Below the pieces are notes generated by a model, which ran no database searches, was not told where the DNA came from, and worked only from the letters and a program-made list of their open reading frames with translations. Shown piece after piece: positions 25,018-42,030 of a DNA stretch of 64,000 nt. The stretch is from a bacterium. GTDB lineage: Bacteria; Cyanobacteriota; Vampirovibrionia; Obscuribacterales; Obscuribacteraceae. A program made the position numbers and the translations under genes. Location: assembly GCA_018062085.1 (NCBI GenBank), contig JAGOSY010000011.1, forward strand, positions 38,939-102,938. Direction: 5' to 3'. How positions within the stretch are numbered: position 1 is the stretch's first letter; each line of letters begins with the position of its first letter.

Positions 25018-28000
25018 GTTTCTATTTTCAAGCACCCGACTTAGCCGAATTTCCTAGACGCTCTTACCGCCGTTTTTTAGAAGAGACCATTGGCAATCTT
25101 TTTGCTGAAATATCACCAGTCGCCAGCGAATACTCCGCACGCTTTGAACTGACATTTTTAGGACCGGACGGTAAAGTACATTGGCGCTTTGAAGACTACG
25201 CGCCAGACTCGGGCTATCCCACCTCACCGGAACAAGCACGCAAATCTAATATGACGCACTCAAAGCGCATGATGATGGAAGTCTGGCTGCGCGATACACT
25301 GACTGGTGAACTGCGCAAATCAACAGCCTACGTCACTGACGTACCCGTGATAACTGACCGCGGCACATTTGTCATAAACGGCTCAGAGCGCGTGGTCTTG
25401 GGCCAACTAGTACGGGCCCCTGGTATATATTTTAGCCAAGGCGGCCAGACCAGTTACAAGGCTCTAATGCTCGCTGAAATGGGAGCACCAATTGCCTTTG
25501 AGCTAGAACTAGATGCCAGTGGTGGCAAAACGAGTAGGGCAAAGTGCCGCATCAAGTTACCTAAACGCAGCTGGGTGGCAGCGACAACCGTACTAGCTGC
25601 TTTGGGTGTTGACGCTCAAGATTTGCAAAAACGAATTGGTAGTTTGCTTGAGCGCAACCGCATTGATTTCAAGCCACTCACCCAAACCGAAGCTTTAGCA
25701 GTAGTCGGCCGCTCTTGGAAGCCAGACGGTGGTGGTGGCTCATCTGGTGGCGCCACAGCCCTCAAAGAATTAACAGATAGACGCCGCTATTCTCTAGGAA
25801 AGCTCGGACGCAAGCGTGTCAACGCCAAACTTGGCATAGAAGAGCAGTCACATCAGTTGAGTGGTGATGACATTCTCGCCGCTGTCGAATATTTGCTTGG
25901 TCTGCCACTAGATATGGGGCGCACCGATCAAATTGACAGTTTAGAAAATCGCCACCTAAGAGGTGTGGGCGAGACCCTGACAAAGGCTGTCAGACCAGCG
26001 CTCGGACAGATGACCAGATCAATTCGCACTCGCTTAGAGATGAATGAAGATGAAGAAATTGGTTCACCCAATGAACTTCTAGACATCAGACCATTTTCTA
26101 ATGCCCTAAATAAATATTTTGTCGGCAATCCGCTTGTGCAATATCTTGACCAACAAAACCCCCTTTCAGAATTATCACACCGCCGCAGAATCACTTCATT
26201 TGGCCCCGGTGGTATCGACCCTAATGCCGCCCCTGTTGAAATGCGCGACATTCACCCATCGCAAATCGGCCGGGTTTGCTTAGTTGAATCACCAGAAGGC
26301 AAGAACTGCGGCATGGTCTCTTATATGGCCACCTATTGTCGCATTGACGATGACGGCTTTATGACTGTGCCCTATCGAAAAGTATTTAACGGTTTGGTAT
26401 CAGATGAGGTGCAGTTTCTCACCCCGGCTGACGACAAACGCTATACTCTGGCACCACCTGATACAAAAGTAGTGGACGGCAAAATTTCAGGAACCATGGT
26501 CGCGGCTAGACGAGGCGAAAACTTCATTGAAGTCAGTCCTGAAGATGTCGATATGATCGGTATCGCGCCGCAAGGATTTATCTCTGTTGGTTCGGGACTA
26601 ATTCCTTTCTTAGAACACGACGACGCCAACCGTGCTCTCATGGGTGGTGGCATGATGCGCCAAACTTTGCCGTTGATCAGGCCGGAGAGGCCGCGGGTGG
26701 GCACCGGTATGGAGCGCATTGTTGCGCGCTCAAGTGGACACTCTGTCATAGCTAGACGGGCTGGCACAGTCACCAAAGTTACCGGTAAAGAAATCACAGT
26801 TGCCCAAGGCTCTGGCGAATCGAGAACCTATACCCTAACTCGCTTTGATAGAACTAATCAGAACACAATTTTAGACCAACGACCTTCTGTACAAGTAGGG
26901 CAGAAAGTTGAAACTGGCCAAATAATCGCCGACGGGCCAGCCATTGACGCCGGTGAGTTGGCTCTGGGTCGCAACCTACTGATTGCCTTCATGCCCTGGA
27001 ATGGCTACAACTTTGAAGACGCCATTGTTGTGCGAGAAGGTTTGGTAAAAGACCAAAAACTGACCCATATCGAAATTGAGAAACATTCATGCGGCGTACA
27101 CCAAACTCTACGTGGCCCCGAAATTCTCACACCCGAGCTACCAAACGTCACAGCTAAAGACCTAGAGCATCTCGACGACAGAGGCATTGCCAAAATTGGC
27201 TGTTACGTCAACCCAGGAGACATTCTGGTCTCTAAGTTGTCGCCCAAAGAAGCAAAGGCCCTATCAGCAGAAGAAGAACTATTGCAAGCTATCTTTGGCA
27301 AAGTTGCCGAAGAGATGGGTGATACCAGCTTGAGGGTGCCCCACGGCTCTGGTGGTAGGGTCATAGATGTGCGCATCTTCACGCCCGAGACCACCCCCGA
27401 ACTCAAAGCTGGCATTATCTGCGAAATTGAAGTCTTGATTGCCAGATTGTGCCCAGTAGAAGTAGGAGACAAGTTGGCCGGTCGACACGGCAACAAAGGC
27501 ATTGTCTCAATCATCGTTCCCGATTGCGATATGCCCTACATGCCTGACGGCACCCCCGTAGACATCTGCCTCAATGCCCTTGGTGTTCCTAGCCGTATGA
27601 ATGTCGGACAAGTATTCGATACCCAGCTGGGCTATTACGCCAGTATTCTCAACCGCTACTATCGCATTCACCAATTTGACGAATCTATCGCCCCCGATGC
27701 CTCTTTCAGGCTGGTCACAGATGCCCTAAAAGAAGTGCGCCAATTACCCGGTTATGAATGGATGGGTGCAGACGGCAAAGTAAAACTAACCGACGGCCGC
27801 ACAGGCGAGCCGTTTGACCGGCCAATTTTAGTAGGCCGTCAATATATGCTCAAACTGAATCAACTAGTACTGCACAAAATAAACGCCAGGTCAGGCTTAG
27901 GCGGCCCCTACGCCGCAGTAACTCAACAACCTGTGGGTGGTAAAGCCAACCATGGCGGTCAGCGCATGGGTGAAATGGAAGTCTGGGCCATTCAAGCCTA

Positions 28001-28886
28001 TGGTGCAGCCAGTATTTTGCACGAAATGATGACCATTAAGGCCGACGACATTCAAGGCCGCCACCAGTCTTATGCCGACATGGTACAAGGCAACCCTATA
28101 ACTCCAGGCGGGCGAACAGCAGCCTTTGATGGCCTCTGCTGCGAAATTCGCGGTTTGGGCATGGAAGTCACCCTCGGCAAGGTGGTTGATTCTTTCGAAC
28201 CGATAGAAGACCGCTCTTGTTTGCAACCAAATGGGCATCCTACGAAGACTCTAGAAGAAAAATATCAAGTCTCTGCAGTGCACCAAATGGAAGAAAATGA
28301 CGGGCAAAAAGTGCTCGAAATCCCCGCTGGTGACTTCGTTCCGGTTTCTCGACCACCAGCCTTGCCACTGATTACATCGCTCACTAGCGGAAAACACGGT
28401 GGGAAACCACGTATTGAAATGTCCCAGGAACCGTTGTTTGATGACATAGAAGAGGGCGCCCCCGAATCTGTATCTGATTCTGTACCTGATGCTTTGATGG
28501 ATGCCTTCATTGCCCAAGCCCTAAAGGAAGTGGATGAAGTTAGTCCACTAGACCTCCCCAAAGAACCCGCCAAAGAAACTAAAAACAGCAATAGCAATGG
28601 CACGGCAGCAAATTATCTATCTGAAGTACTGGCCAGAGAACTCGGAGCACAATCAACCCTAAATGGCTTCCCTTCGCTAAGCGAACTATCAACACTAGCT
28701 CAACAACTAGTCACCATTAATCAAGAAGCCAAAGAACAAGAAAGAATAGAACCAGCAACTAGCGTTCAGAACGAAAGTGAAAAGCTTACCGAGCTAGCTG
28801 GCTACTTCAAAAAATCAAGCAAAATTTCAGACATAGAAAAAACAAGCGATAATTCGCCAACAAATAATCAAGAAGATTCAAGCTAA
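25014..28886 (+). CDS. rpoB: Divergent RNA polymerase beta subunit (probable RpoB paralogue)
   Basis: The beta subunit forms half of the RNA polymerase active centre. The 1,290 residues are collinear with RpoB: PDLAEFPRRSYRRFLEE, GTFVINGSERVV, the rifampicin region around D379, GYNFEDAIVV (E668, D669), GDKLAGRHGNKG (K820, K828) and GGQRMGEMEVWA. The catalytic equivalents of E. coli E813, D814, K1065 and K1073 are kept. Odd changes include VESPEGKNCGM for the usual IETPEGPNIGL, a shortened lobe region lacking the normal RG(S/A)W block, and an acidic tail of about 235 residues after the core. A GGAGG site lies inside the upstream gene. No rpoC, rplJ or rplL is near. I infer a second, specialised beta subunit, but it could be the only one in a genome with scattered RNAP genes. 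Confidence 0.93.
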   Translation: MSFYFQAPDLAEFPRRSYRRFLEETIGNLFAEISPVASEYSARFELTFLGPDGKVHWRFEDYAPDSGYPTSPEQARKSNMTHSKRMMMEVWLRDTLTGELRKSTAYVTDVPVITDRGTFVINGSERVVLGQLVRAPGIYFSQGGQTSYKALMLAEMGAPIAFELELDASGGKTSRAKCRIKLPKRSWVAATTVLAALGVDAQDLQKRIGSLLERNRIDFKPLTQTEALAVVGRSWKPDGGGGSSGGATALKELTDRRRYSLGKLGRKRVNAKLGIEEQSHQLSGDDILAAVEYLLGLPLDMGRTDQIDSLENRHLRGVGETLTKAVRPALGQMTRSIRTRLEMNEDEEIGSPNELLDIRPFSNALNKYFVGNPLVQYLDQQNPLSELSHRRRITSFGPGGIDPNAAPVEMRDIHPSQIGRVCLVESPEGKNCGMVSYMATYCRIDDDGFMTVPYRKVFNGLVSDEVQFLTPADDKRYTLAPPDTKVVDGKISGTMVAARRGENFIEVSPEDVDMIGIAPQGFISVGSGLIPFLEHDDANRALMGGGMMRQTLPLIRPERPRVGTGMERIVARSSGHSVIARRAGTVTKVTGKEITVAQGSGESRTYTLTRFDRTNQNTILDQRPSVQVGQKVETGQIIADGPAIDAGELALGRNLLIAFMPWNGYNFEDAIVVREGLVKDQKLTHIEIEKHSCGVHQTLRGPEILTPELPNVTAKDLEHLDDRGIAKIGCYVNPGDILVSKLSPKEAKALSAEEELLQAIFGKVAEEMGDTSLRVPHGSGGRVIDVRIFTPETTPELKAGIICEIEVLIARLCPVEVGDKLAGRHGNKGIVSIIVPDCDMPYMPDGTPVDICLNALGVPSRMNVGQVFDTQLGYYASILNRYYRIHQFDESIAPDASFRLVTDALKEVRQLPGYEWMGADGKVKLTDGRTGEPFDRPILVGRQYMLKLNQLVLHKINARSGLGGPYAAVTQQPVGGKANHGGQRMGEMEVWAIQAYGAASILHEMMTIKADDIQGRHQSYADMVQGNPITPGGRTAAFDGLCCEIRGLGMEVTLGKVVDSFEPIEDRSCLQPNGHPTKTLEEKYQVSAVHQMEENDGQKVLEIPAGDFVPVSRPPALPLITSLTSGKHGGKPRIEMSQEPLFDDIEEGAPESVSDSVPDALMDAFIAQALKEVDEVSPLDLPKEPAKETKNSNSNGTAANYLSEVLARELGAQSTLNGFPSLSELSTLAQQLVTINQEAKEQERIEPATSVQNESEKLTELAGYFKKSSKISDIEKTSDNSPTNNQEDSS

Positions 28887-28905: not shown

Positions 28906-29865
28906 ATGACAGGCAGGTCAATAGCAGGTGAACACAAAAGCAATGGCAAATGCCTGGCTAGCCTGGCTCTATTGATTTGTTCGCTGCTCTTAGCCATTGT
29001 CTTCACCACCTTGAACGCTGAAGTAGCCTCGGCTCAATTCGGTGGTGCTGTGCCTCCACCAGTCGGAGATGGCCCTACACCTCAACCAGTCAATCCTGGT
29101 GATACCACCGGCCCGAGCGCTGTACCCACTGGCGCAGCAGACCCAACCCCAGGCACAAACAACGCTACCGCTCCAGGTAGAGATAGAACAGTTATTCGCC
29201 TATATGACAATGGCGCCACAGGCCGTGGCCGACGCATGGTGCAGACCCTAAGACCAGATACACTTTCAGCCGAAGCCCAAAGCAGAATTGGTGGCATTCT
29301 TGGTATCAATATGAATTCTGGTGAGCAGTCTATCGATGTCACCGTCACTAGAGACCAAATTGCTCAGATACAAGATGTCATAGCTGCTTATCCGCAGACT
29401 ACACAAGTTGATGGTCGCAACATGATCACTGGCGACGACCCTGCCGCTGGCTATCCCAGACCAGGCAACGGCAGCCTCTATCGCTTCGATGGTCAATTAC
29501 CGACAGTCGCTACTTTCTCTCGCTACCTCGTCATTCTTGGCGTAGTGGTCTCAACAGTTTTCATGGCGATTGCCGCCTACTCAGTAGTGATGGGCAGCAG
29601 AGACGGTGGCAACCGAGTAATTGGTGCAGCTTCTGGCCTGCTCTTCTTAATGGCCGCCTACACCATCTGGAAAATTGTGACCATGAATACTTTCCATGGC
29701 AACAGCCCAGACACTGCTCGCGCTCAAAATCGCCCAACCCAAGGCCTTGTGCAAGATGCCTTCATGACCAGACCGAACTTGCCGGCCACTCCTGGTGGCG
29801 GTGTCAACAGTGGCGCCCCTAGGGGTGGAGTTCCTGTTCAACCTCTCGGCACTGCCGGAAATTAG
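28906..29865 (+). CDS. Exported two-helix protein resembling T4SS pilins (VirB2/TrbC-like)
   Basis: A 319-residue protein with a signal peptide of about 43 residues (ending EVASAQ), a Pro/Gly/Thr-rich stretch (48-92), a small alpha/beta segment (95-165) and two close membrane helices, about 207-229 and 238-258, joined by the short loop SRDGGNRVIG, then a Pro/Gly-rich tail. Paired hydrophobic helices linked by a short polar loop with Gly-Gly, after a cleaved signal, are the pattern of VirB2/TrbC and Gram-positive T4SS pilins. The resemblance covers only this part, so the assignment is tentative. It starts 19 bp after the rpoB-like gene. Confidence 0.6.
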   Translation: MTGRSIAGEHKSNGKCLASLALLICSLLLAIVFTTLNAEVASAQFGGAVPPPVGDGPTPQPVNPGDTTGPSAVPTGAADPTPGTNNATAPGRDRTVIRLYDNGATGRGRRMVQTLRPDTLSAEAQSRIGGILGINMNSGEQSIDVTVTRDQIAQIQDVIAAYPQTTQVDGRNMITGDDPAAGYPRPGNGSLYRFDGQLPTVATFSRYLVILGVVVSTVFMAIAAYSVVMGSRDGGNRVIGAASGLLFLMAAYTIWKIVTMNTFHGNSPDTARAQNRPTQGLVQDAFMTRPNLPATPGGGVNSGAPRGGVPVQPLGTAGN

Positions 29866-29875
29866 GTAATAGAAA

Positions 29876-30574
29876 ATGACAATGCTAAACCTAACTCTAA
29901 ATAAATTGATGGCTCTTCCACTGGCGGCAGCTCTTGTCACTTGTACGGCATTGGCCGGCGATGCTCAGCCCAAGAACGAGTATTTCGGCAGTAACTCCAA
30001 TGGCACGCCGCCTAAAGGTTACAGCAACTATCAAGGACCGCCGCCCAAAGCCATCAACGGCGTAATAAATAAAGGCGCTGGAGCCATGGATTCAGACGCC
30101 AGCCCAGAGCTAACCTGGTTTGAAAAATTTGACGAAGTAAGCTTTCGCGGCAGACCAAACGACTCAGAACGCATCATTTTAAATATGCCATTTAACCAAG
30201 AGCAAGAAAGAGTTCAACGGTGGACCCAGGTGGCAGCAACAGTTGCGAAGCGCTATCGCCAAACAGCAAAAGCCTTAGGCGCAGTGCAAGCTCCAGCGGG
30301 CAGAGCCGACTTAGATGAGTACCGCACTTTGAGAATGGCCTGGTTTAACGATGCCGCTGCAGTATACGAAGAGATGATCAAACCAAGGCAACCAGCCCAG
30401 ACTATCGAAGAGTTAAATGACCAGCTCAGACAAGTAAAAGACCAAGCCAATAGTCTAGGCAAAATGAATATTAGCCTACTTAATTCAGACCACAACTTAA
30501 GACGCAAATACCGAGTACACAACGCTAAGCAAACAGATTCGCTGACCAAGTATGTGACCGGTACATATAAATAA
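29876..30574 (+). CDS. Secreted protein of unknown function
   Basis: A 232-residue protein with a signal peptide (LPLAAALVTCTALAGDA), a low-complexity Gly/Asn/Pro segment to about residue 65, and a helical remainder (about 95-225) with basic and Gln-rich helices such as RVQRWTQVAATVAKRYRQTA. A Cys in the signal region (VTCTALA) does not make a good lipobox. No family recognised. It starts 10 bp after the pilin-like gene and should share its transcript; a periplasmic role alongside it is inferred from position. Confidence 0.7.
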   Translation: MTMLNLTLNKLMALPLAAALVTCTALAGDAQPKNEYFGSNSNGTPPKGYSNYQGPPPKAINGVINKGAGAMDSDASPELTWFEKFDEVSFRGRPNDSERIILNMPFNQEQERVQRWTQVAATVAKRYRQTAKALGAVQAPAGRADLDEYRTLRMAWFNDAAAVYEEMIKPRQPAQTIEELNDQLRQVKDQANSLGKMNISLLNSDHNLRRKYRVHNAKQTDSLTKYVTGTYK

Positions 30575-30643
30575 TTCAAAGACACGAGACAAATTTTTCA
30601 GACAAAACCCCCAGCACCCCAAAAACCCGAGGACCTAGGCAAA

Positions 30644-31420
30644 ATGGCAATACAGTTAAATGACAGAGATCATCTGATTTTCAAGCTCGTTGATGAGCAT
30701 GAAGTATTGCTGGAAAAGCATATTTCTTGGTTTATTGCTGGCGAAGAAAAACCAGTTTTAATTAGAGACCGCTTGCGCAAGCTCTTCTATCTCGACTACT
30801 TGCTCTGCCACCGTCACGGTAGCAAACTACCATGGTGGACCACACCCACCAAACCGCTGGTGTACATGCTCTCGTCTATGGCCAGAACAATTGCAGGAGC
30901 ACCTGAAGCCACTGATGCCATGCTCGACAATGAGTTTCAACGGCACCATTTAGAAGTAGCCAATTTGCGCATGCTTTATTTGGTTGCTCAAAAAGACACA
31001 CAAATCAGCCAGTTTCAGTGGACAACTTGCAAGCAACCGAAGAAGAGCGAGTGTGGCCTTGATGCCATGGTTACCTTTAAATTGAATGGTGCTGCCAACG
31101 GTTCAACTAAACTGGGCTTGGTCAACAATCTCTCACTCAACCTCGAGGCTGTAAGCAAACTGACAAGTGCTATCGAAAGTGAAAAGCTTGACTCGATTCT
31201 ACTTATTTCACGCGATGACCTCTCGCAAAAAGTTCTGCAGCAATTAATTGTGCAAGCTGGTGGTGAACTAGCCAAGCGCACTTTGTTCGCCACCCACCAA
31301 GAGCTGTATAAAGATGGCATTGTTGCCACTCGTTGGCAGGGCGCCTTGGGCCAATCAGCTATTCGTGAAAGCGAGGCTGTGGCTTATATTGGGCCAATCA
31401 CGCAACCAATTGCGGTATAG
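30644..31420 (+). CDS. Replication-relaxation-like winged-helix protein
   Basis: A 258-residue cytoplasmic protein that begins LNDRDHLIFKLVDEHEVLLE and continues RDRLRKLFYLDYLLCHRHGS. This is the typical winged-helix opening of the Replic_Relax (PF13814) family, found mainly on conjugative plasmids and integrative elements of actinobacteria and Firmicutes. The rest alternates helices and strands, with a possible nuclease-like region near KLDSILLISRDDL, but no catalytic set is clear. No relaxase or coupling ATPase accompanies it. It is the last gene of the operon, 69 bp after the secreted protein and 22 bp before a terminator hairpin. Confidence 0.6.
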   Translation: MAIQLNDRDHLIFKLVDEHEVLLEKHISWFIAGEEKPVLIRDRLRKLFYLDYLLCHRHGSKLPWWTTPTKPLVYMLSSMARTIAGAPEATDAMLDNEFQRHHLEVANLRMLYLVAQKDTQISQFQWTTCKQPKKSECGLDAMVTFKLNGAANGSTKLGLVNNLSLNLEAVSKLTSAIESEKLDSILLISRDDLSQKVLQQLIVQAGGELAKRTLFATHQELYKDGIVATRWQGALGQSAIRESEAVAYIGPITQPIAV

Positions 31421-31442
31421 AACTAACTTAAAAGCTGTGGGA

Positions 31443-31478
31443 GAAGGCTGGCATGGGGATGCCAGCCTTCATCTTTTT
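31443..31478 (+). terminator. Strong intrinsic terminator ending the rpoB-like operon
   Basis: A perfect 12-bp stem (GAAGGCTGGCAT at 31443-31454 with ATGCCAGCCTTC at 31459-31470) and GGGG loop, followed by ATCTTTTTG. It lies 22 bp after the last gene of the operon. Confidence 0.92.
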
Positions 31479-31522
31479 GCTCAAGGCCTTATGCCTCAAA
31501 CGTGATTTTGCTTTCGCGTTTA

Positions 31523-31551
31523 TTGACAGGCTGCGACGGGAAGATTAGCAT
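31523..31551 (+). promoter_or_regulatory. Sigma-70-type promoter of first TadG-like gene
   Basis: TTGACA at 31523-31528, a 17-bp spacer and TAGCAT at 31546-31551, 54 bp upstream of the ATG. The -35 box is perfect, the -10 box matches four of six. Just downstream of the preceding terminator, which supports a new transcript here. Confidence 0.6.
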
Positions 31552-31605
31552 TAATGTATTAGTGCAATCTAAGCAAATTAATCTTGAGCCTGGGGGGCTT
31601 CACAT

Positions 31606-33684
31606 ATGCCTAAGCACATTAGGCCGCTAAAACGGCCAGAATCAGGCAGCATGTTAGTTTTCGGCACAGCTATCACGATCGCCATAGTGGCAGTTTTAGC
31701 GTTCTTCAGCCTCAGTTATGTCAGGCTATTGGGCAGTAGCAGCGAACAACGCACTGCCATTGAAGCTGCGGCATTAGCCGCGGCCCGCGACCTTAGTATG
31801 ATCGCTGTCAATACTGACGAGTATGGCTGGATATCGCTCTCTGACTCTGCGCCAATTGGCAGTCTTACTGTGGCACCTGACCAGTTTTACGTACCAGTCA
31901 GAGGTATTAACACCATACTGGGCACCCTCAGGCTAGATTTAATCATTGCCACCGAGCTAAATGACAATGCCCTCAAAGAAATGATCAAAGCCGATATTGT
32001 AAATGCCAAGTCTGCACAAGCTAAATTAGGCACCGAGCTGAACAAAGCCATGGCAGCTGGCTATAAAGCCAAAGGCATAAATGGTCAAGATATTGATGTT
32101 TACGGTGACGCTCAAAATGCCTACACATCAAACCAAATTAGAATGACTGGCGCCTCAAACTATGTTGCTAACTCGCTCAAGCTATCCCTTGGTGGTATTA
32201 ATAACGGTGGCGTGACCAATACGCCGATACCAAGCCCTGCAGCCAAAGCCAACGTGCCATCTAGTCAACAGCAAAACAACTGTTACCTTTCATACATGGA
32301 TATTCCTACAGATGGCGAAAGTTTTGTCTTTGCTGGCATTGGCAGCTCAATAAAGCTAATGGACCCTAAACAATGGACAGTGACAGTAGCTGGATTACCC
32401 TATCAAGTTGCCACTATAGTTAAGGCCGAAGCTGACCAGCATGTCACAGATACTCAGAACCCTGCTGGCTACAACATCCACGCCATTGCCTGCGCTCAAC
32501 CGGCTAACGTGGTTGACCCCAAGCCGACTCCAGGAGCATTGACCTTCAGCTTCCCCGATGGTATGCCCCCAGAAATTCTGGGACCAGGCACTTTGCTCAC
32601 AAACGCCCAGATCAACTCAAACAACAACTGCACTTATCAAACATCGGTTAATGGTGACTATCCACTAGGCAAACCAGCAACCAGACTTGACGATACCAGC
32701 TGGCCTTATGCTTGTGACTCTCACTCAGGCAATGTATTCAGAAAGTCACTGACTGACTGGTGGCGCCGTGCTGGTACTAAACTCAATATAGCCTCAGCCA
32801 CAGCCATGCTCAATGACCCAGCCAACAATTTCTGGCGTCCAACTGGCGCCGACAACGTCGATTGGATTACAGAAGCAGTGCTCGGCGATACCCAGTTGTA
32901 CAACCTTGGGCCCATTCCCCGCGGCTACATTCACATTTATCGCGTTGATCCGTCTACAGGCTTGGTGAGCTATGCCCATGAAGGCTTGACACCAACTAAT
33001 TACTCGGTAGCCGGTGAAAATCAGATGTATTCAGAAAACATTGATGCCATAACCAAGAGTGCTGTAGGCAAGCAGACAGTTGGACCATTCACCTTCCCTG
33101 GCACCCTGAAGCCGGGTGGCTTGACCAACGATAACAAAGTCACTTTGTTAGACAATTTCGACCTCTACATCCGCGACCAAGTCTGTCAACCAGGCATGAA
33201 CCAAGGAGGAATGCACGCAGGCGAACCCATGGACTTTGACAAAGTAGTGATGCTGCAGAAGAACAACAACCATAATTATAGCCATGACCTAGGCGGCAGC
33301 GGCCTCGGGGCAGCGAAGCCACCAGCAGTCAAGCCAGCCGGTCTACCACCGGCCATCACCGACCAGTCTGACTTTGCTGAAAAATCGGGCTTCCCTGATG
33401 CTGAGTACAATACCTATGAAGCTGGCCCTGGCACCGATTCTGTTCGACCTACCTACAAAGACAATGGCATGGCAGTAGACGTTCGCTTCAGAAGACAAGT
33501 CGAAACCGGTAGTCTTAGCGCTTTACTTGGTTTCAAAATTGGTTATGTTGGCCACAAGTATGGTGCCACCTTCGGACCAAGTGCATTACCCGCTGTCGCT
33601 GCGCCGTCTATGCACTACGGCCACGACGACGACGATAACGACACACATAAACATAAGAAGAAGAAGAAGAAGCATCATTCGTGA
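31606..33684 (+). CDS. TadG-like membrane-anchored protein, copy 1
   Basis: The first 60 residues, with GSMLVFGTAITIAIVAVLAF followed by EQRTAIEAAALAAARDL, match the N-terminus of TadG/TadE-like Flp-pilus proteins (Tad family): one helix anchors the protein and the rest is outside. The remaining 630 residues are a large exported domain with many Asn, Pro and Gly and no recognised enzyme motif, ending in a His/Lys-rich tail (HKHKKKKKKHHS). A GGGGGG ribosome site precedes the ATG. The protein is clearly paralogous over its length to the next gene, with shared blocks such as DQHVTDTQNPAGYNIHA. It has its own promoter and terminator. TadG proteins are minor pilins or assembly factors; the specific role here is unknown. 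Confidence 0.82.
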   Translation: MPKHIRPLKRPESGSMLVFGTAITIAIVAVLAFFSLSYVRLLGSSSEQRTAIEAAALAAARDLSMIAVNTDEYGWISLSDSAPIGSLTVAPDQFYVPVRGINTILGTLRLDLIIATELNDNALKEMIKADIVNAKSAQAKLGTELNKAMAAGYKAKGINGQDIDVYGDAQNAYTSNQIRMTGASNYVANSLKLSLGGINNGGVTNTPIPSPAAKANVPSSQQQNNCYLSYMDIPTDGESFVFAGIGSSIKLMDPKQWTVTVAGLPYQVATIVKAEADQHVTDTQNPAGYNIHAIACAQPANVVDPKPTPGALTFSFPDGMPPEILGPGTLLTNAQINSNNNCTYQTSVNGDYPLGKPATRLDDTSWPYACDSHSGNVFRKSLTDWWRRAGTKLNIASATAMLNDPANNFWRPTGADNVDWITEAVLGDTQLYNLGPIPRGYIHIYRVDPSTGLVSYAHEGLTPTNYSVAGENQMYSENIDAITKSAVGKQTVGPFTFPGTLKPGGLTNDNKVTLLDNFDLYIRDQVCQPGMNQGGMHAGEPMDFDKVVMLQKNNNHNYSHDLGGSGLGAAKPPAVKPAGLPPAITDQSDFAEKSGFPDAEYNTYEAGPGTDSVRPTYKDNGMAVDVRFRRQVETGSLSALLGFKIGYVGHKYGATFGPSALPAVAAPSMHYGHDDDDNDTHKHKKKKKKHHS

Positions 33685-33766
33685 CCAGCACAGACGAGAT
33701 GAAAAATTGCTAATAAATTAATCGCACATTAACCCCGTCTAACCCTACAGGGAATAAAAAAGAGCC

Positions 33767-33808
33767 AAGAAGAGAGCCTGCAGCACAATGCAGGCTCTCT
33801 TCTTTTTT
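33767..33808 (+). terminator. Intrinsic terminator after TadG-like copy 1
   Basis: A perfect 16-bp stem: AAGAAGAGAGCCTGCA (33767-33782) pairs with TGCAGGCTCTCTTCTT (33789-33804) across a six-base loop, followed by more T residues. The A-rich 5' side also gives a usable T tract on the other strand. Confidence 0.93.
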
Positions 33809-33851
33809 AGCAAGACGCTGAATAGCACCTAAATAGAGCCGAGCAGGCCAA

Positions 33852-33880
33852 TTGACAGGATGGGTAGCAGCTTATAGGAT
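33852..33880 (+). promoter_or_regulatory. Sigma-70-type promoter of second TadG-like gene
   Basis: TTGACA at 33852-33857, 17-bp spacer, TAGGAT at 33875-33880, 58 bp before the chosen ATG. It begins TTGACAGG as does the promoter of copy 1. The upstream part of the open frame (TTG at 33852) coincides with this -35 box, so I do not treat it as coding. Confidence 0.58.
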
Positions 33881-33938
33881 AGAATTATTAGAGCCGCTTA
33901 AGCAAAGCCTTTTATGGCCTGGCGCTGGGGGATATTTT

Positions 33939-36056
33939 ATGGTCAGTCGAAGAATTTTACTAATGCGATCGAAATCCGGCAATATGCTGGTGTTCAGTAC
34001 CGCAGTTACCATTGCTATAGTCGCAGTTCTGGCTTTTTTCAGCCTTAGCTATGTGCGGCTCTTAGGCAGCAACAGCGAACAACGCACCGCCATTGAAGCG
34101 GCAGCTCTAGCGGCTGCTCGCGACTTAAGCATGATTGCTATAAACACAGCTGATTATGGCTGGATTTCACTGTCTGATGCCGCCCCCACAGGTAGCAGCA
34201 CCACGGCAGGAGATGCCTACAACATACCAGTACGCGGTATCAATACTATTCTCGGCACCTTGCGTCTAGATTTAATAATTGCTGACCAACTTGCTGATGC
34301 CAATTTAAAAACAATCATCAAAGCTGACATTGTCAAAGCAAAAGCCGCTCAAGCACTTCTAGGCACTGAATTGTCTAAGTCTTTGGCAGCTGGCTACGGC
34401 GCTAAAGATATAAACGGCAATACAGTCAATGTCTATGCCGATGCCGAAAACGCCTACAAGTCAAATCAAATAAGAATGACGGGCTCTTCTAACTATATAA
34501 ACAATTCACTCAAACTCTCGCTTGGCGGCATCACAAATGGTGCCATGACCAACACACCACTACCTAACCCCAGAGCCATGGCAGACGTACCCACTGCTAA
34601 GCAACAGAATGACTTCTACCTATCTTATATAAACATTCCAACTGATGGAGAAGACTTTGTATTTGCTGGTATCGGCGACTCTATGAAATTGGTTGACCCT
34701 AGACAATGGGCCTCAGTTGTACCCGGCCTGCCCTATCAGGTAGCAACTATTGTTAAAGCCGAAGCAGACCAACATGTCACTGACACCCAGAACCCAGCAG
34801 GGTACAACATACATGCAGTAGCCTGTGCCCAACCAGCTAACGTAGCAGACCCCAAACCAGCTCCTGGCGCCCTTACATTTAGCTTCCCTGATGGCATTCC
34901 ACCAGAGATAATTAGCCCCATGAGCATGTTGACAAACGCCCAGTTAAACAAAGGAGACAATTGCTCTTATCAAACTTCAATCAATGGTGACTATCCCATT
35001 GGAGTACCGACTACCCAAATGGACGACTTAGACTGGCCCCACACTTCTCTTGCTCAAAGCACCGGCAACGTCTTTAGAGTAGCCGTACTCGACTGGTGGA
35101 AGCGTGCGGGCACCAAGCTCAATGTTTCTTCGGCTGTAAACATGTTCCAAGACAGTAAATTCAACTTCGTCGCCCCTGGTGCTGACGTTCTATGGAAAAC
35201 CCACTCATCCCCAACTAGCACCACTGTCTACGAATTAGGTCCAATCCCGGCTGGCAACATCCACATCTACAGAGTTGACCCAGCCACTGGCCAAGTCAGC
35301 TATCAAAACAAACCGCTGACCCCTCTGAACCTAGCCGTAGCTGGCGAAGATCAAATGTACTCTGAAAACGTTGATGCACTGACCAGCTCTATCGCTAAAG
35401 ATACGGTCGTAGGCCCCTTCGAATTTCCGGATACTGGCTATATCTTAGACACCGTGACACTGAAGAAAAAATTCGATGTCTACATTAGAGATCAGGTCTA
35501 TCAACCAGGTTCAACAAAAGGCGGCAAGCACGCTGGCGAACCAATGGACTACCTACCGGCCGCAGTGACCCAATTGCCTGCCCACCTCAGACCCAGCCAA
35601 GACCTTGGTGGCCCCGGATTCGGCGCCTATAGCTACAAACCACCACCCCCTCCAAACAAGAAGAACCCTGGACTCCCCCCTGCGATCACCAGTCAATCTG
35701 ACTTTGCTGAAAATTCAGGCTTCACGCCATCCAAATATTATCAATACAGCCAAGGGCCGGGAACAGGAAAAAATCCCAAGATGCGCCCTACTTATCAAAA
35801 GAATGGTATGGCAGTTGATATTCGCTTCCGCAGACAAGTCAACACCGGTACTCTAGCTAAATCATTAGGTTTCGACACCGGCTATGTCGGCGAGAAGCTA
35901 GATGCAGCGACCGTTTCGACCCCAGCCAGACCGCCAGTACCAGTACCAACCGTGCCAGACCCTACTGAGACAGGAACCGATACTGGAACTGATACAGGAA
36001 CAAGTACTGGAACAGGGACGGGAACAGATACCGGAGCTGGCACAGGTACTCTCTAG
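33939..36056 (+). CDS. TadG-like membrane-anchored protein, copy 2
   Basis: With the ATG at 33939 the protein has 705 residues and begins exactly like copy 1: a short basic segment, then GNMLVFSTAVTIAIVAVLAF and EQRTAIEAAALAAARDL. GGGGGA lies at the ribosome-site position. The exported domain is homologous to copy 1 along almost the whole length (both have ITSQSDFAE or ITDQSDFAE, then MAVDVRFRRQV or MAVDIRFRRQV near the end). The tails differ: here about 25 residues of Gly-Thr repeats follow a Pro/Val-rich linker. Tandem duplication followed by tail replacement is inferred. Independent promoter and terminator suggest separate control of the copies. Confidence 0.82.
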   Translation: MVSRRILLMRSKSGNMLVFSTAVTIAIVAVLAFFSLSYVRLLGSNSEQRTAIEAAALAAARDLSMIAINTADYGWISLSDAAPTGSSTTAGDAYNIPVRGINTILGTLRLDLIIADQLADANLKTIIKADIVKAKAAQALLGTELSKSLAAGYGAKDINGNTVNVYADAENAYKSNQIRMTGSSNYINNSLKLSLGGITNGAMTNTPLPNPRAMADVPTAKQQNDFYLSYINIPTDGEDFVFAGIGDSMKLVDPRQWASVVPGLPYQVATIVKAEADQHVTDTQNPAGYNIHAVACAQPANVADPKPAPGALTFSFPDGIPPEIISPMSMLTNAQLNKGDNCSYQTSINGDYPIGVPTTQMDDLDWPHTSLAQSTGNVFRVAVLDWWKRAGTKLNVSSAVNMFQDSKFNFVAPGADVLWKTHSSPTSTTVYELGPIPAGNIHIYRVDPATGQVSYQNKPLTPLNLAVAGEDQMYSENVDALTSSIAKDTVVGPFEFPDTGYILDTVTLKKKFDVYIRDQVYQPGSTKGGKHAGEPMDYLPAAVTQLPAHLRPSQDLGGPGFGAYSYKPPPPPNKKNPGLPPAITSQSDFAENSGFTPSKYYQYSQGPGTGKNPKMRPTYQKNGMAVDIRFRRQVNTGTLAKSLGFDTGYVGEKLDAATVSTPARPPVPVPTVPDPTETGTDTGTDTGTSTGTGTGTDTGAGTGTL

Positions 36057-36071
36057 CAACTAAACAAAATG

Positions 36072-36109
36072 AAAAGAGAGCATTGCCAGTAGTGGCAGTG
36101 CTCTCTTTT
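36072..36109. terminator. Bidirectional intrinsic terminator
   Basis: Stem of 16 pairs with one G-T wobble: AAAAGAGAGCATTGCC (36072-36087) with GGCAGTGCTCTCTTTT (36094-36109). The A tract on one side and T tract on the other serve both the TadG-like copy 2 gene and the converging minus-strand gene. Confidence 0.88.
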
Positions 36110-36113
36110 ATTA

Positions 36114-36578
36114 CTAATCTAAATCTGGCTTAGTCAGGGCTTCAACGGTTTTTATTTTGAGCATACGGCAGCCCCCCAAATCACCCACCCAGCCAGAAGC
36201 TCTCACTTTCTCGCCCATGTAGGGTATAAGCAAATCTTTGCAGCCCTGAAAACCTTTGTATTTGGCAGCGATATATAGATTTTTTGTACCGTCCTCAAGA
36301 ATGCCGATGCTGACACCTCCATGAGCACAAGCTAGTGCACAGGCCTTATGAGCCGGCCCTCTTCCTGGCCCCATGGTTTGCGAAGCATAGCACCAAGCGT
36401 CAACAACTTCGCCCACAACCACAACTTCTCTAGTGGTCGACTTAATCTCCGTTGAGCGGTAGTGCGGTTGCTTTGACTGATAGAAGTAATAGGCCGCAAA
36501 GCCTGCGCAAACCAGCAGCAGAGAAGATAAGGCTATGATGATTTTCTTGTTCTGGATTGTATCCGACGTTGTAGCCAT
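36114..36578 (-). CDS. Membrane-anchored protein with conserved Cys/His motif
   Basis: A 154-residue protein with one N-terminal helix (about 12-33) and a periplasmic domain. The core VVDAWCYASQTMGPGRG, then AHKACALACAHGGVSIGILE, has C62, a His and two Cys three residues apart, and two more cysteines (FQGCKDL, LGGCRML) follow. I recall similar unnamed domains with a W-C-Y start and H-x-x-C-A-x-x-C block in periplasmic proteins linked to metal or redox functions; no firm family name. It could bind a metal or form disulphides. It lies 7 bp after a TPR gene on the same strand. Confidence 0.72.
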   Translation of the reverse strand: MATTSDTIQNKKIIIALSSLLLVCAGFAAYYFYQSKQPHYRSTEIKSTTREVVVVGEVVDAWCYASQTMGPGRGPAHKACALACAHGGVSIGILEDGTKNLYIAAKYKGFQGCKDLLIPYMGEKVRASGWVGDLGGCRMLKIKTVEALTKPDLD

Positions 36579-38333: not shown

Positions 38334-40607
38334 CTAACAGGGGCCGGTTGAATCGCAGGTAGTGGTAGCTGGGCAAGCACAGCCGTTAGGGATAGTAATA
38401 GTATCCCCGCTTCCTGAATAAGTAATGCCAAAGGCACCAGAACCAGTTGAACCTTCAGGGCAACAGGTAGTACTGACTGCACCCATGTTGAGCTGACCGA
38501 GCAAATTATTCCATCCACTGGCAGGGGTGAAGGAGAACCAATTCATCAAACAGATTTTGCCAGGGTAATCATAAGGCTGTGGATAGTTCCAGTCACCGGC
38601 TACGTTTATCTGAGTGAAGGGCATCAATTCAAACTGGCGAGTTTCAGTAGGTGATGTGGGGCTCTTGGCGTCTGGCAATTGACCGATGAAATCTTTGAGC
38701 CATGGCGCATCGGCAATGGCCGCACTTTCTTCTTTCAAGACCAAGCCACCCTGGCCAGCGTTAGCAGTCTGACTAAAGTAAATATAGCCGCGGCCCCCCA
38801 TTGGCACGATGTTTTGAGTGAGAATGTAATCTAGCGGCCGACTCTCAGAGGCATAAACACCCTTGTTGGCATAACTTAGCCACTCAGGATCGATTTGATA
38901 CATGCGCTGAGTCAAATACTTCCACATAGGGCCGTTCAAACTAATACCTTCTGCACTCTTGCTGTCTAAGCGCACACCTTGATCGGTGGTTATGCGATAG
39001 TCAGGACTGCTCAACGGAGAGCGACTAGCAGGCACATGGGCAATTCCAGACTGATAAGTACCAGGATGGAAGTCGTTGCCTTCAGCACGGTCACTAAGAA
39101 GCTTTAAATTGACTATGTCGGCGACGTTCACACTAGCAGTGCCACTACTGACGGGCGAGGGCGGCAGGATGTTGTAAGCGGCTTCAATCACTGGCCTTGC
39201 CCATAAGCTACGGCTATCAGGTTTGTTGTAAATAGCCATGTCTTTATTAACTTTTGACGAAGCATTATCAAGGGCAATATTGTCTACGCCCGCACCACCG
39301 ATGCCACCAATTGAATTGCAATTAGCCTGGTTAACGCCACTGAGTCCGAGCGTATCACCCGATAGAGCAACACCGACACTTAAGCCACTGCAATCAGGAG
39401 TCTTTCCATCTTTTATATCTTGTGCAATTTTGGCAATATAGTCAGCACCATTGCTGCAACCACCAGGCAGAGGCGAATCATTCATGCCAACGAAATACGG
39501 CATTGGTTTACCATTGACGTCAACTGGATAAACCTGGGGATTATTCATAACATAGACGAAGACGTCTTGTTTGTTGCCGTTAGCCACTCCAGAAGCGGGC
39601 GAAGCTGCACCATTTTGAATGCGGATGAATCCATGAGGAAGAGCCGCGGCATAGCCTTTGGGATCAATTGGTTCGACTATGGCACAGGCGTTGAAATTTC
39701 CGTTGTAGCCTTGAGCCGACTGAGCCTGAGCCTTCAATGACAAGGCATTGGGAACGGGTTTAGTCCAACCAAAGGCATTGGCTCCAACTGATGCTTTGCT
39801 GTTACTGTCGAAATCACCTTGAGTTACCAAGTGAGGCTTAGCGCCAGGCTTAAGAGGGACAAAATATGTATTGGCAAAACTAGCGTCTGGTGACATTCCC
39901 TCAAGATATCCCTTGAGATAATTATGGTTGCCACTAGGGTCTATGTCTGAGCTTACCGCAGTTACCCATCCGCTAACCTTATCGTTATAAGTTTTCGAAG
40001 TCTTGGTGCTGAAATCATAGTCAGGCATAGCAGAGGAGGCTATATAAACGTTAGAAGCACCAGTCCTATCAAGGTATGAAAAAGTCGGTGCACCAAGCGG
40101 AGTAATGTCTTGTGGGCCGAATTGCTTTGTTGGATTGAGCCTAGCGATAGAGCTAAAGAAATCTTCAACAGATGATGGCTTGGCTAGCTGATCACTCAAC
40201 TGTTTACCAAGAGCTTGAGCAGCTATAGTAATCTGGGAAGCATGTGATGTAGCACCCTGGTCGAGCCCGTCTTGAGCTATTTTATGAGCATTGAAGTTAA
40301 CTATCATCGACTGCGCCATCAGCCTATTGATGTTGCGCAAATTAACGACACCGTTGGCACCGGAAGTGTGATCCGTGACACCGTTGAACTGCACGGCATC
40401 ACCACTGTTTGGAATCGGCACAGCCACCTTCACCAAAACAGAACGAGCTAGAGACAGGTTTCCGGCGTCAGTTGCTCGCTGCATCTGCTGGCCACCGCCA
40501 AGCAAATTGATAAGCGCGATTGCCGCCACAATTATCACCGCTAGAGCCAAGATAAATGCAACTACCAAAACCATTGATGCTGCGCGCTTCCGTCTAAACC
40601 GTTCCAT
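38334..40607 (-). CDS. TadG-like membrane-anchored protein, third copy, divergent
   Basis: A 757-residue protein with a basic start, then SMVLVVAFILALAVIIVAAI and MQRATDAGNLSLARSV, the N-terminal pattern of TadG/TadE-like Flp-pilus proteins. The remaining 700 residues are a large exported domain, poor in charge and rich in Asn/Gly/Pro, with a cysteine-rich end (TTCCPEGSTG, CACPATTTCDSTG). It is only distantly like the tandem pair at 31.6-36.1 kb, but the size and domain plan are the same. Transcribed opposite to the TadE-like genes that start 430 bp away. Confidence 0.78.
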   Translation of the reverse strand: MERFRRKRAASMVLVVAFILALAVIIVAAIALINLLGGGQQMQRATDAGNLSLARSVLVKVAVPIPNSGDAVQFNGVTDHTSGANGVVNLRNINRLMAQSMIVNFNAHKIAQDGLDQGATSHASQITIAAQALGKQLSDQLAKPSSVEDFFSSIARLNPTKQFGPQDITPLGAPTFSYLDRTGASNVYIASSAMPDYDFSTKTSKTYNDKVSGWVTAVSSDIDPSGNHNYLKGYLEGMSPDASFANTYFVPLKPGAKPHLVTQGDFDSNSKASVGANAFGWTKPVPNALSLKAQAQSAQGYNGNFNACAIVEPIDPKGYAAALPHGFIRIQNGAASPASGVANGNKQDVFVYVMNNPQVYPVDVNGKPMPYFVGMNDSPLPGGCSNGADYIAKIAQDIKDGKTPDCSGLSVGVALSGDTLGLSGVNQANCNSIGGIGGAGVDNIALDNASSKVNKDMAIYNKPDSRSLWARPVIEAAYNILPPSPVSSGTASVNVADIVNLKLLSDRAEGNDFHPGTYQSGIAHVPASRSPLSSPDYRITTDQGVRLDSKSAEGISLNGPMWKYLTQRMYQIDPEWLSYANKGVYASESRPLDYILTQNIVPMGGRGYIYFSQTANAGQGGLVLKEESAAIADAPWLKDFIGQLPDAKSPTSPTETRQFELMPFTQINVAGDWNYPQPYDYPGKICLMNWFSFTPASGWNNLLGQLNMGAVSTTCCPEGSTGSGAFGITYSGSGDTITIPNGCACPATTTCDSTGPC

Positions 40608-41035
40608 CGAAAAGAACCTCGCCGAATGATAATGAATCTGCAGTGAGTACCAATGTACTTTTTCAACACCAATGCTTTCATGAGACTAAGACTTACTGGC
40701 TGGTAACTCTACGATTAGTCTACTCTTACCAGGCGGCCGCAAAGGCACTAGTGAGCATTTCATGAAGGCTCAAACCTGGCTGAGATGAGGGTAACAACTT
40801 AGGCTTGGCTCGAACATTATAGCAGTTTAATATGACATAACAAGCGAAACTTATGCATTTTCGCCGCTCCCATGGTAATCGCCCCACTGATCTCAGAGAA
40901 AAGCATCAACGCTGCAATACATCACGTTGAAAGCTCTCCAGATAGGGGCATATATCATGTGCAGATTAGTGCAGTCAGGTGCAGTAAAAGATGCAACAAT
41001 GATTTTTAAGAATTTGCCGGACAGCGGATACATAG
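40608..41035. promoter_or_regulatory. Divergent intergenic region with GTGCAG repeats
   Basis: This 428-bp region separates the third TadG-like gene (minus) from the TadE-like genes (plus). It holds a 7-bp inverted repeat (CTGGTAA at 40700-40706, TTACCAG at 40726-40732) and three GTGCAG words at 40959, 40969 and 40979, exactly 10 bp apart on one face of the helix, about 55 bp before the TadE-like start. I found no ORF or RNA gene. Confidence 0.5.
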
Positions 41036-41593
41036 ATGAAATATATATGCAGCGAGCTTCTTAACACAAGACATGCTCCAGCTCTAGGCCTAAGACACAG
41101 ACGCTCAAACAGAGGAAGCGCAATTACCGAATTCGCCCCAGCTCTCTTCATCTTTATCATGGTGTTTTTCTTTCCTTTTCTCAATCTCATAGGTATGGCG
41201 ATTTCTTACGCCGATTGCCTCTATCTCGACACCTTGCTCTTGCGTCAAGCGGCCATAGAGAACGTACTGACGCTAGACAATAGCACCACGCCACCCGCCC
41301 TAAAACCAGACCTATCCTGTAGTACATCGCCTACAGGCTCGCTCAATATGATTATCAATAATTGGCTACAACTTGGACTGGGTCGCTTTGCTAGCACCGC
41401 GACCGTGCCTCTACAGACCTGCTACATAGACCTAACAGAAGGCTCAAACAAAGTTCGCTTTATCCACCTCAACTTACAAACAGAATGCCGGCCGTTTCTG
41501 CAGATTCCGTTCCCTCTGCCGATACCCGGTTTGAACAAACCGGTAACCTTTAGATTTAGCGGACGAGCTGTAATTGAAAACATCCCCAGCTAG
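41036..41593 (+). CDS. TadE-like pilus-type protein 1
   Basis: A 185-residue protein. After a basic leader of about 35 residues (HRRSNRGSAITEFAPALFIF) comes one hydrophobic helix with the TadE-type G-S-A-I-T-E-F opening, where a Glu five residues after the cleavage-type glycine is typical of pseudopilins. The rest is exported and contains three cysteines. TadE proteins are minor pseudopilins of Flp pilus systems. It is followed after 20 bp by a second TadE-like gene. The peptidase and assembly ATPase are not in the window. Confidence 0.8.
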   Translation: MKYICSELLNTRHAPALGLRHRRSNRGSAITEFAPALFIFIMVFFFPFLNLIGMAISYADCLYLDTLLLRQAAIENVLTLDNSTTPPALKPDLSCSTSPTGSLNMIINNWLQLGLGRFASTATVPLQTCYIDLTEGSNKVRFIHLNLQTECRPFLQIPFPLPIPGLNKPVTFRFSGRAVIENIPS

Positions 41594-41613
41594 AATAATC
41601 AGGTGACCAATTT

Positions 41614-42030
41614 ATGGATCGTCGCAGTAAGCATGGGCAGAGCATTATCGAAGTGCTGGTTGGCTCAATTGTACTTGTACCAATTGTTCTCGCCATTATC
41701 GACCTAGCCGTTGTCTACATCGGCGGCGATATCTGCAATGGATTAGCAAAACAAGCAGCAAGAGCCGCAGCCAACGCCTCTGACATTACAGAAGCAACCG
41801 CAGCTGTGGCTGATGTCCAAACCAATTTTCAAAAATCACCAACATACAAAAATCTTGTGCTCAAGCTAGACAAGTACGACGGCACCGCTGATGGCTTAGC
41901 CAACGTAAAATGTACTGTGACGATTGTCTTACCAGTGCCAATACCATTTCTAAGCTTAGGGCCAGAAATGACTATAAATACTCAAGCATCAGAAGCGATT
42001 GTTGGCATCGCTGCACCAAGACCAACTTGA
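41614..42030 (+). CDS. TadE-like pilus-type protein 2
   Basis: A 138-residue protein starting MDRRSKHGQSIIEVLVGSIV, with the G-x-S-x-x-E-x pattern of class-III signal/TadE-like N-termini, a helix of about 22 residues, then an exported domain with QAARAAANASD typical of TadE helices. Cotranscribed with the first TadE-like gene. It ends 35 bp before the converging stop of the HMA gene. Confidence 0.82.
   Translation: MDRRSKHGQSIIEVLVGSIVLVPIVLAIIDLAVVYIGGDICNGLAKQAARAAANASDITEATAAVADVQTNFQKSPTYKNLVLKLDKYDGTADGLANVKCTVTIVLPVPIPFLSLGPEMTINTQASEAIVGIAAPRPT

Follow-up and report, generated by a model that had tools for sequence, protein, structure and literature searches.

Exchangeable tips are believed to adapt Tad pili to their tasks and, to our knowledge, how a cell picks its tips is hardly known. 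A search of open-licence PMC papers returned none on the genes described below or on their control in Obscuribacterales; relative to that literature, the gene family and its shared control site in this order appear to be new.

Among the closest described systems, large pilins form exchangeable tips in Myxococcus, and the KilLMN tip clusters can lie apart from the main locus, as stated in PMC12075869. As for Caulobacter crescentus, CpaL is a minor pilin fused to a vWA domain, and its description also provides the definition of the G/A-X4-F/E prepilin-peptidase-type site (PMC12607857). The window analysed here is a 64-kb stretch of contig C70 from G000, a draft genome of 5.83 Mb belonging to the family Obscuribacteraceae, in which two large adjacent genes, hereafter A and B, were compared with these systems.

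Paired proteins compared with known pilus tips

Copy A (31606-33684, + strand) encodes a protein of 692 aa and copy B (33939-36056, + strand) one of 705 aa. They share 64% identity over 712 alignment columns, i.e. nearly their full length, tails excepted, which bears out the description of two head-to-tail paralogues of about 700 residues, homologous along most of their length, given in the initial annotation. Both have a short, basic N-terminus with a G-X4-F motif (G14-X4-F19) ahead of one hydrophobic segment (windows at 12-45 in A and 13-44 in B, with no other in either protein). The motif fits the G/A-X4-F/E site, cleavage being a prediction from the sequence, and neither A nor B has an E at +5. 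The following 600-650 residues or so belong to no named family. The tails differ in kind: that of A is His/Lys/Asp-rich and those of its orthologues Asp-rich, while B and its orthologue in the congeneric genome G005 end in Thr/Gly repeats. In B, this tail is encoded by imperfect 12-nt repeats (35964-36035).

At the domain level, B has a weak match to PF13400 (Putative Flp pilus-assembly TadE/G-like; E 0.054, 14.3 bits vs. a cut-off of 22.3), and none is listed for A at E ≤ 0.1. At E ≤ 1, 19 of the 20 family members scanned match, and among ten relatives listed singly, one exceeds the cut-off (24.4 vs. 22.3 bits), a distant paralogue from the same genome. Compared with the PF13400 Tad domain, the family has an N-terminal match (the first 47 positions in B and most relatives) that is mostly under the curated cut-off, and a remainder assigned to no named family; the label "TadG-like" reflects only these weak Pfam matches. 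NCBIfam gave nothing for A or B, and a profile search of the PDB a single match at E 0.87. AlphaFold models of full-length A, computed with 10 sequences, and of its N-terminal 325 residues (mean pLDDT of 31.7 and 43.8, respectively) were too poor to reveal a pilin fold; the one feature common to both was a long helix spanning residues 14 to about 63.

A and B are like CpaL in their large size, G/A-X4-F/E site and N-terminal pilin-like helix; they differ from it in their two tandem copies, the lack of synteny and the absence of a vWA family from the Pfam listing of either protein. With the TadG/KilN tips of the Myxococcus Kil system (PMC12075869), they have in common a short charged N-terminus, a pilin-like hydrophobic helix, a long C-terminal part, the presence of several paralogues per genome apart from the assembly genes and, possibly, small TadE/F-like partners. 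Apart from the weak Tad domain, no sequence similarity of A and B to these tips was detected, and their place in a pilus is a prediction; many copies of their type stand alone without TadE/F partners, and a lineage-specific promoter-dyad element links the genes.

Some 31 kb away, just outside the window, contig C70 carries a Tad operon on its minus strand (L076:5020-12807; about 105.5-113.3 kb of C70). Its products are an 81-aa Flp-like pilin, TadE, RcpC, a TadG-like protein of 505 aa for which Pfam gave no match, a TadZ-like ATPase, TadA, TadB and TadC. A second Tad-like set was observed on contig C68 (L077). As none of the 20 homologue loci retrieved (L045-L064) contains a TadA, TadB, TadC or RcpC match, the family is tied to a pilus solely through its fold family and the content of the genome. 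A TadG/KilN gene would be expected in or beside a tad/kil locus; given the distance of the Tad operon, and since domain and fold are not decisive, A and B were not filed as TadG.

Two small TadE-like pseudopilins with E at +5 are encoded 5.0-6.0 kb downstream of B, one of 185 aa (41036-41593, + strand; motif G-SAITE) and one of 138 aa (41614-42030, + strand; motif G-QSIIE, weak PF07811 match at E 0.0096). Both are kept in G003, G004 and G005, but the other genera do not have them at this place. Divergent from them is the gene of a 757-aa protein of another TadG-like family (38334-40607, - strand), which has an N-terminal hydrophobic segment; the whole stretch of 38334-42030 is kept in the same three genomes and is likewise missing from this place in the other genera. 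The three proteins possibly form a tip trio.

Two probable transcription units with a common promoter-dyad element

An intrinsic terminator precedes A (31443-31470, + strand; 12-bp stem and T run, -25.4 kcal/mol for 31436-31482) and is predicted to insulate it from the RpoB2/g258 genes. The promoter of A (31523-31551, + strand) consists of TTGACA (31523-31528), 17 nt and TAGCAT (31546-31551) and is conserved in G001 and G005; that of B (33852-33880, + strand) consists of TTGACA (33852-33857), 17 nt and TAGGAT (33875-33880) and is conserved in G005. Each promoter-like site has 10 of 12 matches, and the -10 end is 54 bp (A) or 58 bp (B) from the ATG, as the initial annotation had it. Probable ribosome-binding sites are G-runs on the + strand at 31592-31597 for A, conserved in relatives, and at 33927-33931 for B, conserved in G005. 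A start of B at TTG 33852 was rejected, this TTG belonging to the -35 box; the ATG at 33939 follows the GGGGG run and is kept as a start in G005.

The very strong hairpins announced after each copy were also recovered. The terminator of A (33767-33804, + strand) has a 16-bp stem, the folded stretch reaching -29.7 kcal/mol, and it is likewise found upstream of B in G005, where its stem is altered and still pairs. The terminator after B (36072-36109, no strand assigned), with a 17-bp stem and -28.3 kcal/mol for the fold of 36060-36115, is common to B and to the convergent gene of a 154-aa protein (36114-36578, - strand). This last gene was found in G003, G004 and G005 and was not found in G001 or G002. 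The upstream regions are conserved within the genus, and recognisably so in G009 and G030, despite near-saturated synonymous sites.

At the predicted transcription start of A lies the dyad TTAGTGCAATCTAA (31559-31572, + strand) and at that of B the dyad TTAGAGCCGCTTAA (33888-33901, + strand). Both are of the form TTAR-N6-YTAA, recognised by the pattern and a spacing control, and are proposed operators. The octamer TTGACAGG was rejected as evidence by itself: two occurrences were seen in the window vs. 2.13 expected, both of them at A and B. It is the longer composite, not the octamer, that exceeds chance, since a first composite of the promoter and TATTAG gave two matches in 5.83 Mb, both at A and B, and none with the reversed control. 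The promoter-dyad composite (TTGACR-N16-18-TANNAT-N3-7-TTAR-N6-YTAA, with the reversed pattern as control) likewise occurs at two places in the genome, before A and before B, and at no others. Very probably, A and B form two independent units that have a control element in common.

The composite was searched in 60 draft genomes, the present one included, of which 36 belong to the same family, 3 to a sister family and 21 to other families of the class. It gave 28 matches in 22 genomes, vs. two for the reversed pattern; within the family, 23 matches were found in 17 of the 36 genomes, vs. one. When the dyad spacing was set to 7 instead of 6, no match was left in the 36 family genomes and two in all 60. 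Sixteen of the 23 family sites precede A/B-type genes, and three (in G026, G027 and G035) precede genes homologous to that of the 757-aa TadG-like protein, with 27-28% protein identity and E values from 3e-26 to 3e-29. Three others precede a histidine kinase gene and one, in G028, an unrelated gene. Outside the family, the site in G037 (sister family) stands before a gene whose product is homologous to the 185-aa TadE-like protein (E 1e-17); the four remaining sites, without a clear link, were left out of the site statistics. Of the resulting 24 sites, 16 have a promoter spacer of 17 and 15 have G at the fourth position of the -10.

When the upstream regions of 36 homologues were searched with spacings of 5 to 7 allowed, a promoter was present in 12, of which 11 have the dyad, always at spacing 6. 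Within the A/B orthologue clade, 4 of 15 members lack the element; in the present genome, it is also lacking before the genes of Flp and of the 757-aa and 185-aa proteins. A looser TTGA pattern added no sites in this genome, and its matches were about as frequent as those of the control in the sister family, which is AT-rich, and in the other families of the class. No Rfam match was found over 31400-36200.

Concerning the histidine kinase, the element lies 130-210 bp before the gene in three species of the genus (loci L087 of G002, L103 of G004 and L105 of G003), and the L103 kinase carries HisKA and HATPase_c. Homologues with 46-57% identity in G000, G001 and G005 have no dyad in the stretches examined. 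The kinase is a candidate feedback regulator.

Copy number, age and exchange between copies

Homologues of A and B were found in 38 of the 60 genomes, i.e. 35 of the 36 of the family, all three of the sister family and none of the 21 of other families; over 100 places of homology were listed. The named relatives retrieved with the proteins bear the labels Cyanobacteriota or Cyanobacteria, Candidatus Melainabacteria or Candidatus Obscuribacterales, except for one contig assigned to Proteobacteria and another given as "uncultured bacterium"; the genome was accordingly taken to belong to the Obscuribacterales.

The gene order TPR, RpoB2, 319 aa, 232 aa, 258 aa and TadG-like gene is kept within the genus in G001, G003 and G005 (the G004 contig starts inside this stretch), and also outside it, in G009, G014, G015, G030 and G032. 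The three ORFs of 319, 232 and 258 aa (28906-31420), between RpoB2 and the TadG-like gene, have no Pfam matches. Relatives were checked for one copy or two, as proposed in the initial annotation. A single copy occupies this place in seven genomes (G003, G004, G009, G014, G015, G030 and G032). In G005 both are present but not adjacent: an unrelated gene comes after A, in the final 2.2 kb of that contig, whereas B lies at the start of a different contig, 172 bp from the contig end. In G001, A stands alone at this place, with other genes after it. A search of that genome found no B orthologue and no counterpart of the gene located after B in the window, an absence that can be a gap, the relatives being draft genomes. 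With single copies, or other genes after A, in the relatives, the exact tandem is therefore a feature of this genome. Among the matches listed, neighbouring same-strand copies occur in at least eight genomes, the present one included.

The copies are old. Their fourfold-site difference is 0.67, against values of 0.52-0.60 for pairs of orthologues from separate species, and synonymous sites are saturated. In a tree of 33 homologues (quick search, SH-aLRT support only), all eight copies of the genus form one clade (support 98), in which A clusters with the copies of G001 and G005 (100) and B with one copy of G005 (100); the single copies of G003 and G004 are placed with B, with weak support (80). 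Recent identical duplicates, which the initial annotation had named as the refuting case, are ruled out by the saturated sites and the separate A and B clades. Together with the promoters and terminators kept in relatives, this age speaks for its proposal of a duplication apparently kept as two independently transcribed units.

As to recombination, another check it proposed, no sign of exchange was found: in three quartets, the sites favoured no mixing of copies by 73:4:2, 99:2:2 and 72:3:1, although alignment columns 100-150 are uninformative in the two quartets that include the A copy of G005. Gene conversion between A and B was rejected on these counts and on the saturated synonymous sites. 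A B-like stretch in the A copy of G005, in the same columns, was also rejected as a conversion, since the G001 copy on contig C43 and the G003 copy share several of its residues, and ancestral residues explain it equally well. The best direct repeats between A and B reach 71-80%, with no near-identical repeat. Neither exchange nor an invertible promoter, the marks of a phase-variable or recombining tandem, was seen in the quartets, the saturated sites or the separate promoters of the two copies.

Competing explanations, the putative regulon and the second beta subunit

The explanation we put forward, at a confidence midway between doubt and acceptance, is that A and B are anciently diverged members of a lineage-specific large TadG-like family and act as co-regulated Tad-pilus tip or adhesin proteins, made from their own units under one dimeric DNA-binding regulator. 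The Tad prepilin peptidase would process the pilin-like N-terminal helix, which would take its place at the end of a Tad (Flp) pilus assembled by the machinery encoded about 31 kb off; the long C-terminal portion would serve as an exposed, exchangeable tip or adhesin. Each copy would form its own transcription unit, with a sigma-70-type promoter having a poor -10 (TAGnAT). The poor -10 and the position of the dyad over the start site hint at a dimeric repressor, which would bind the dyad and most likely block initiation; upon its release, A and B would be made together. It is plausible that they are parts of one filament or tip.

The initial annotation considered alternately used surface proteins, and two divergent surface-protein copies that adjoin, with tails of different kinds, as well as the neighbouring same-strand copies in at least eight genomes among the matches listed, would fit antigenic or phase variation. 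Both copies nevertheless carry the same promoter and dyad, the quartets reveal no mixing and near-identical repeats are lacking, which makes alternate use very unlikely. The shared control site corrects this idea: the same element stands before A and B and has no other match in the genome, which predicts joint control, so that the two would probably be switched on together and not in turn. That the dyad is an RNA element (a hairpin at the 5' end) or a promoter sequence inherited without a bound regulator is an unlikely reading in its turn. Most sites precede homologous genes and could be inherited, and a 4-bp stem could form in some copies; such a stem is however short, and weaker in the TTAG/TTAA copies, the spacing of 6 is fixed, Rfam gave no match in 31400-36200, and the element also precedes non-homologous genes, i.e. 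those of the histidine kinase in three species and of two other pseudopilin families.

A tentative place, well above that of the two former readings and short of an even chance, must be given to A and B being single-pass, cell-anchored surface or periplasmic proteins that have a TadE/G-like membrane segment only and never enter a pilus. The weak Tad matches, the lack of E at +5, the fact that the gene is an orphan in every one of the 20 loci retrieved and the low-complexity tails typical of envelope proteins point that way; the G-X4-F site ahead of the hydrophobic segment, the Tad operon on the same contig and the promoter element common to two other pseudopilin families argue for pilus proteins instead.

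Beyond the locus, the sites may equally be taken or not be taken as evidence of an Obscuribacteraceae regulon in which one promoter-operator serves dispersed orphan tip-like genes of at least two large TadG-like families and, in some species, the histidine kinase. With the same evenly divided judgement, its mark would be TTGACA-N17-TA[GC]GAT followed by TTAR-N6-YTAA, and A and B its two members in this genome. Such a short promoter-operator, common to tip-like genes of several types in a whole family of uncultured non-photosynthetic cyanobacterial relatives, provides a directly testable handle.

A second, divergent RNA polymerase beta subunit of 1290 aa (RpoB2) is encoded at 25014-28886 (+ strand), its gene overlapping that of a TPR protein (22927-25017) by 4 nt. 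It is about 44% identical to the normal RpoB of the genome and keeps GYNFED and GDKxAGRHGNKG, which we take to be catalytic motifs; only one RpoC match was found in this genome. That an RNA polymerase containing this subunit, encoded just upstream, acts at the regulon promoters is highly improbable. Duplication of rpoB is reportedly known in some actinomycetes. RpoB2-type sequences (≥70%, fragments counted) occur in 34 of the 36 genomes of the family, one of the three of the sister family and none of the 21 others, and this family-wide presence is more surprising than the paired TadG-like finding itself.
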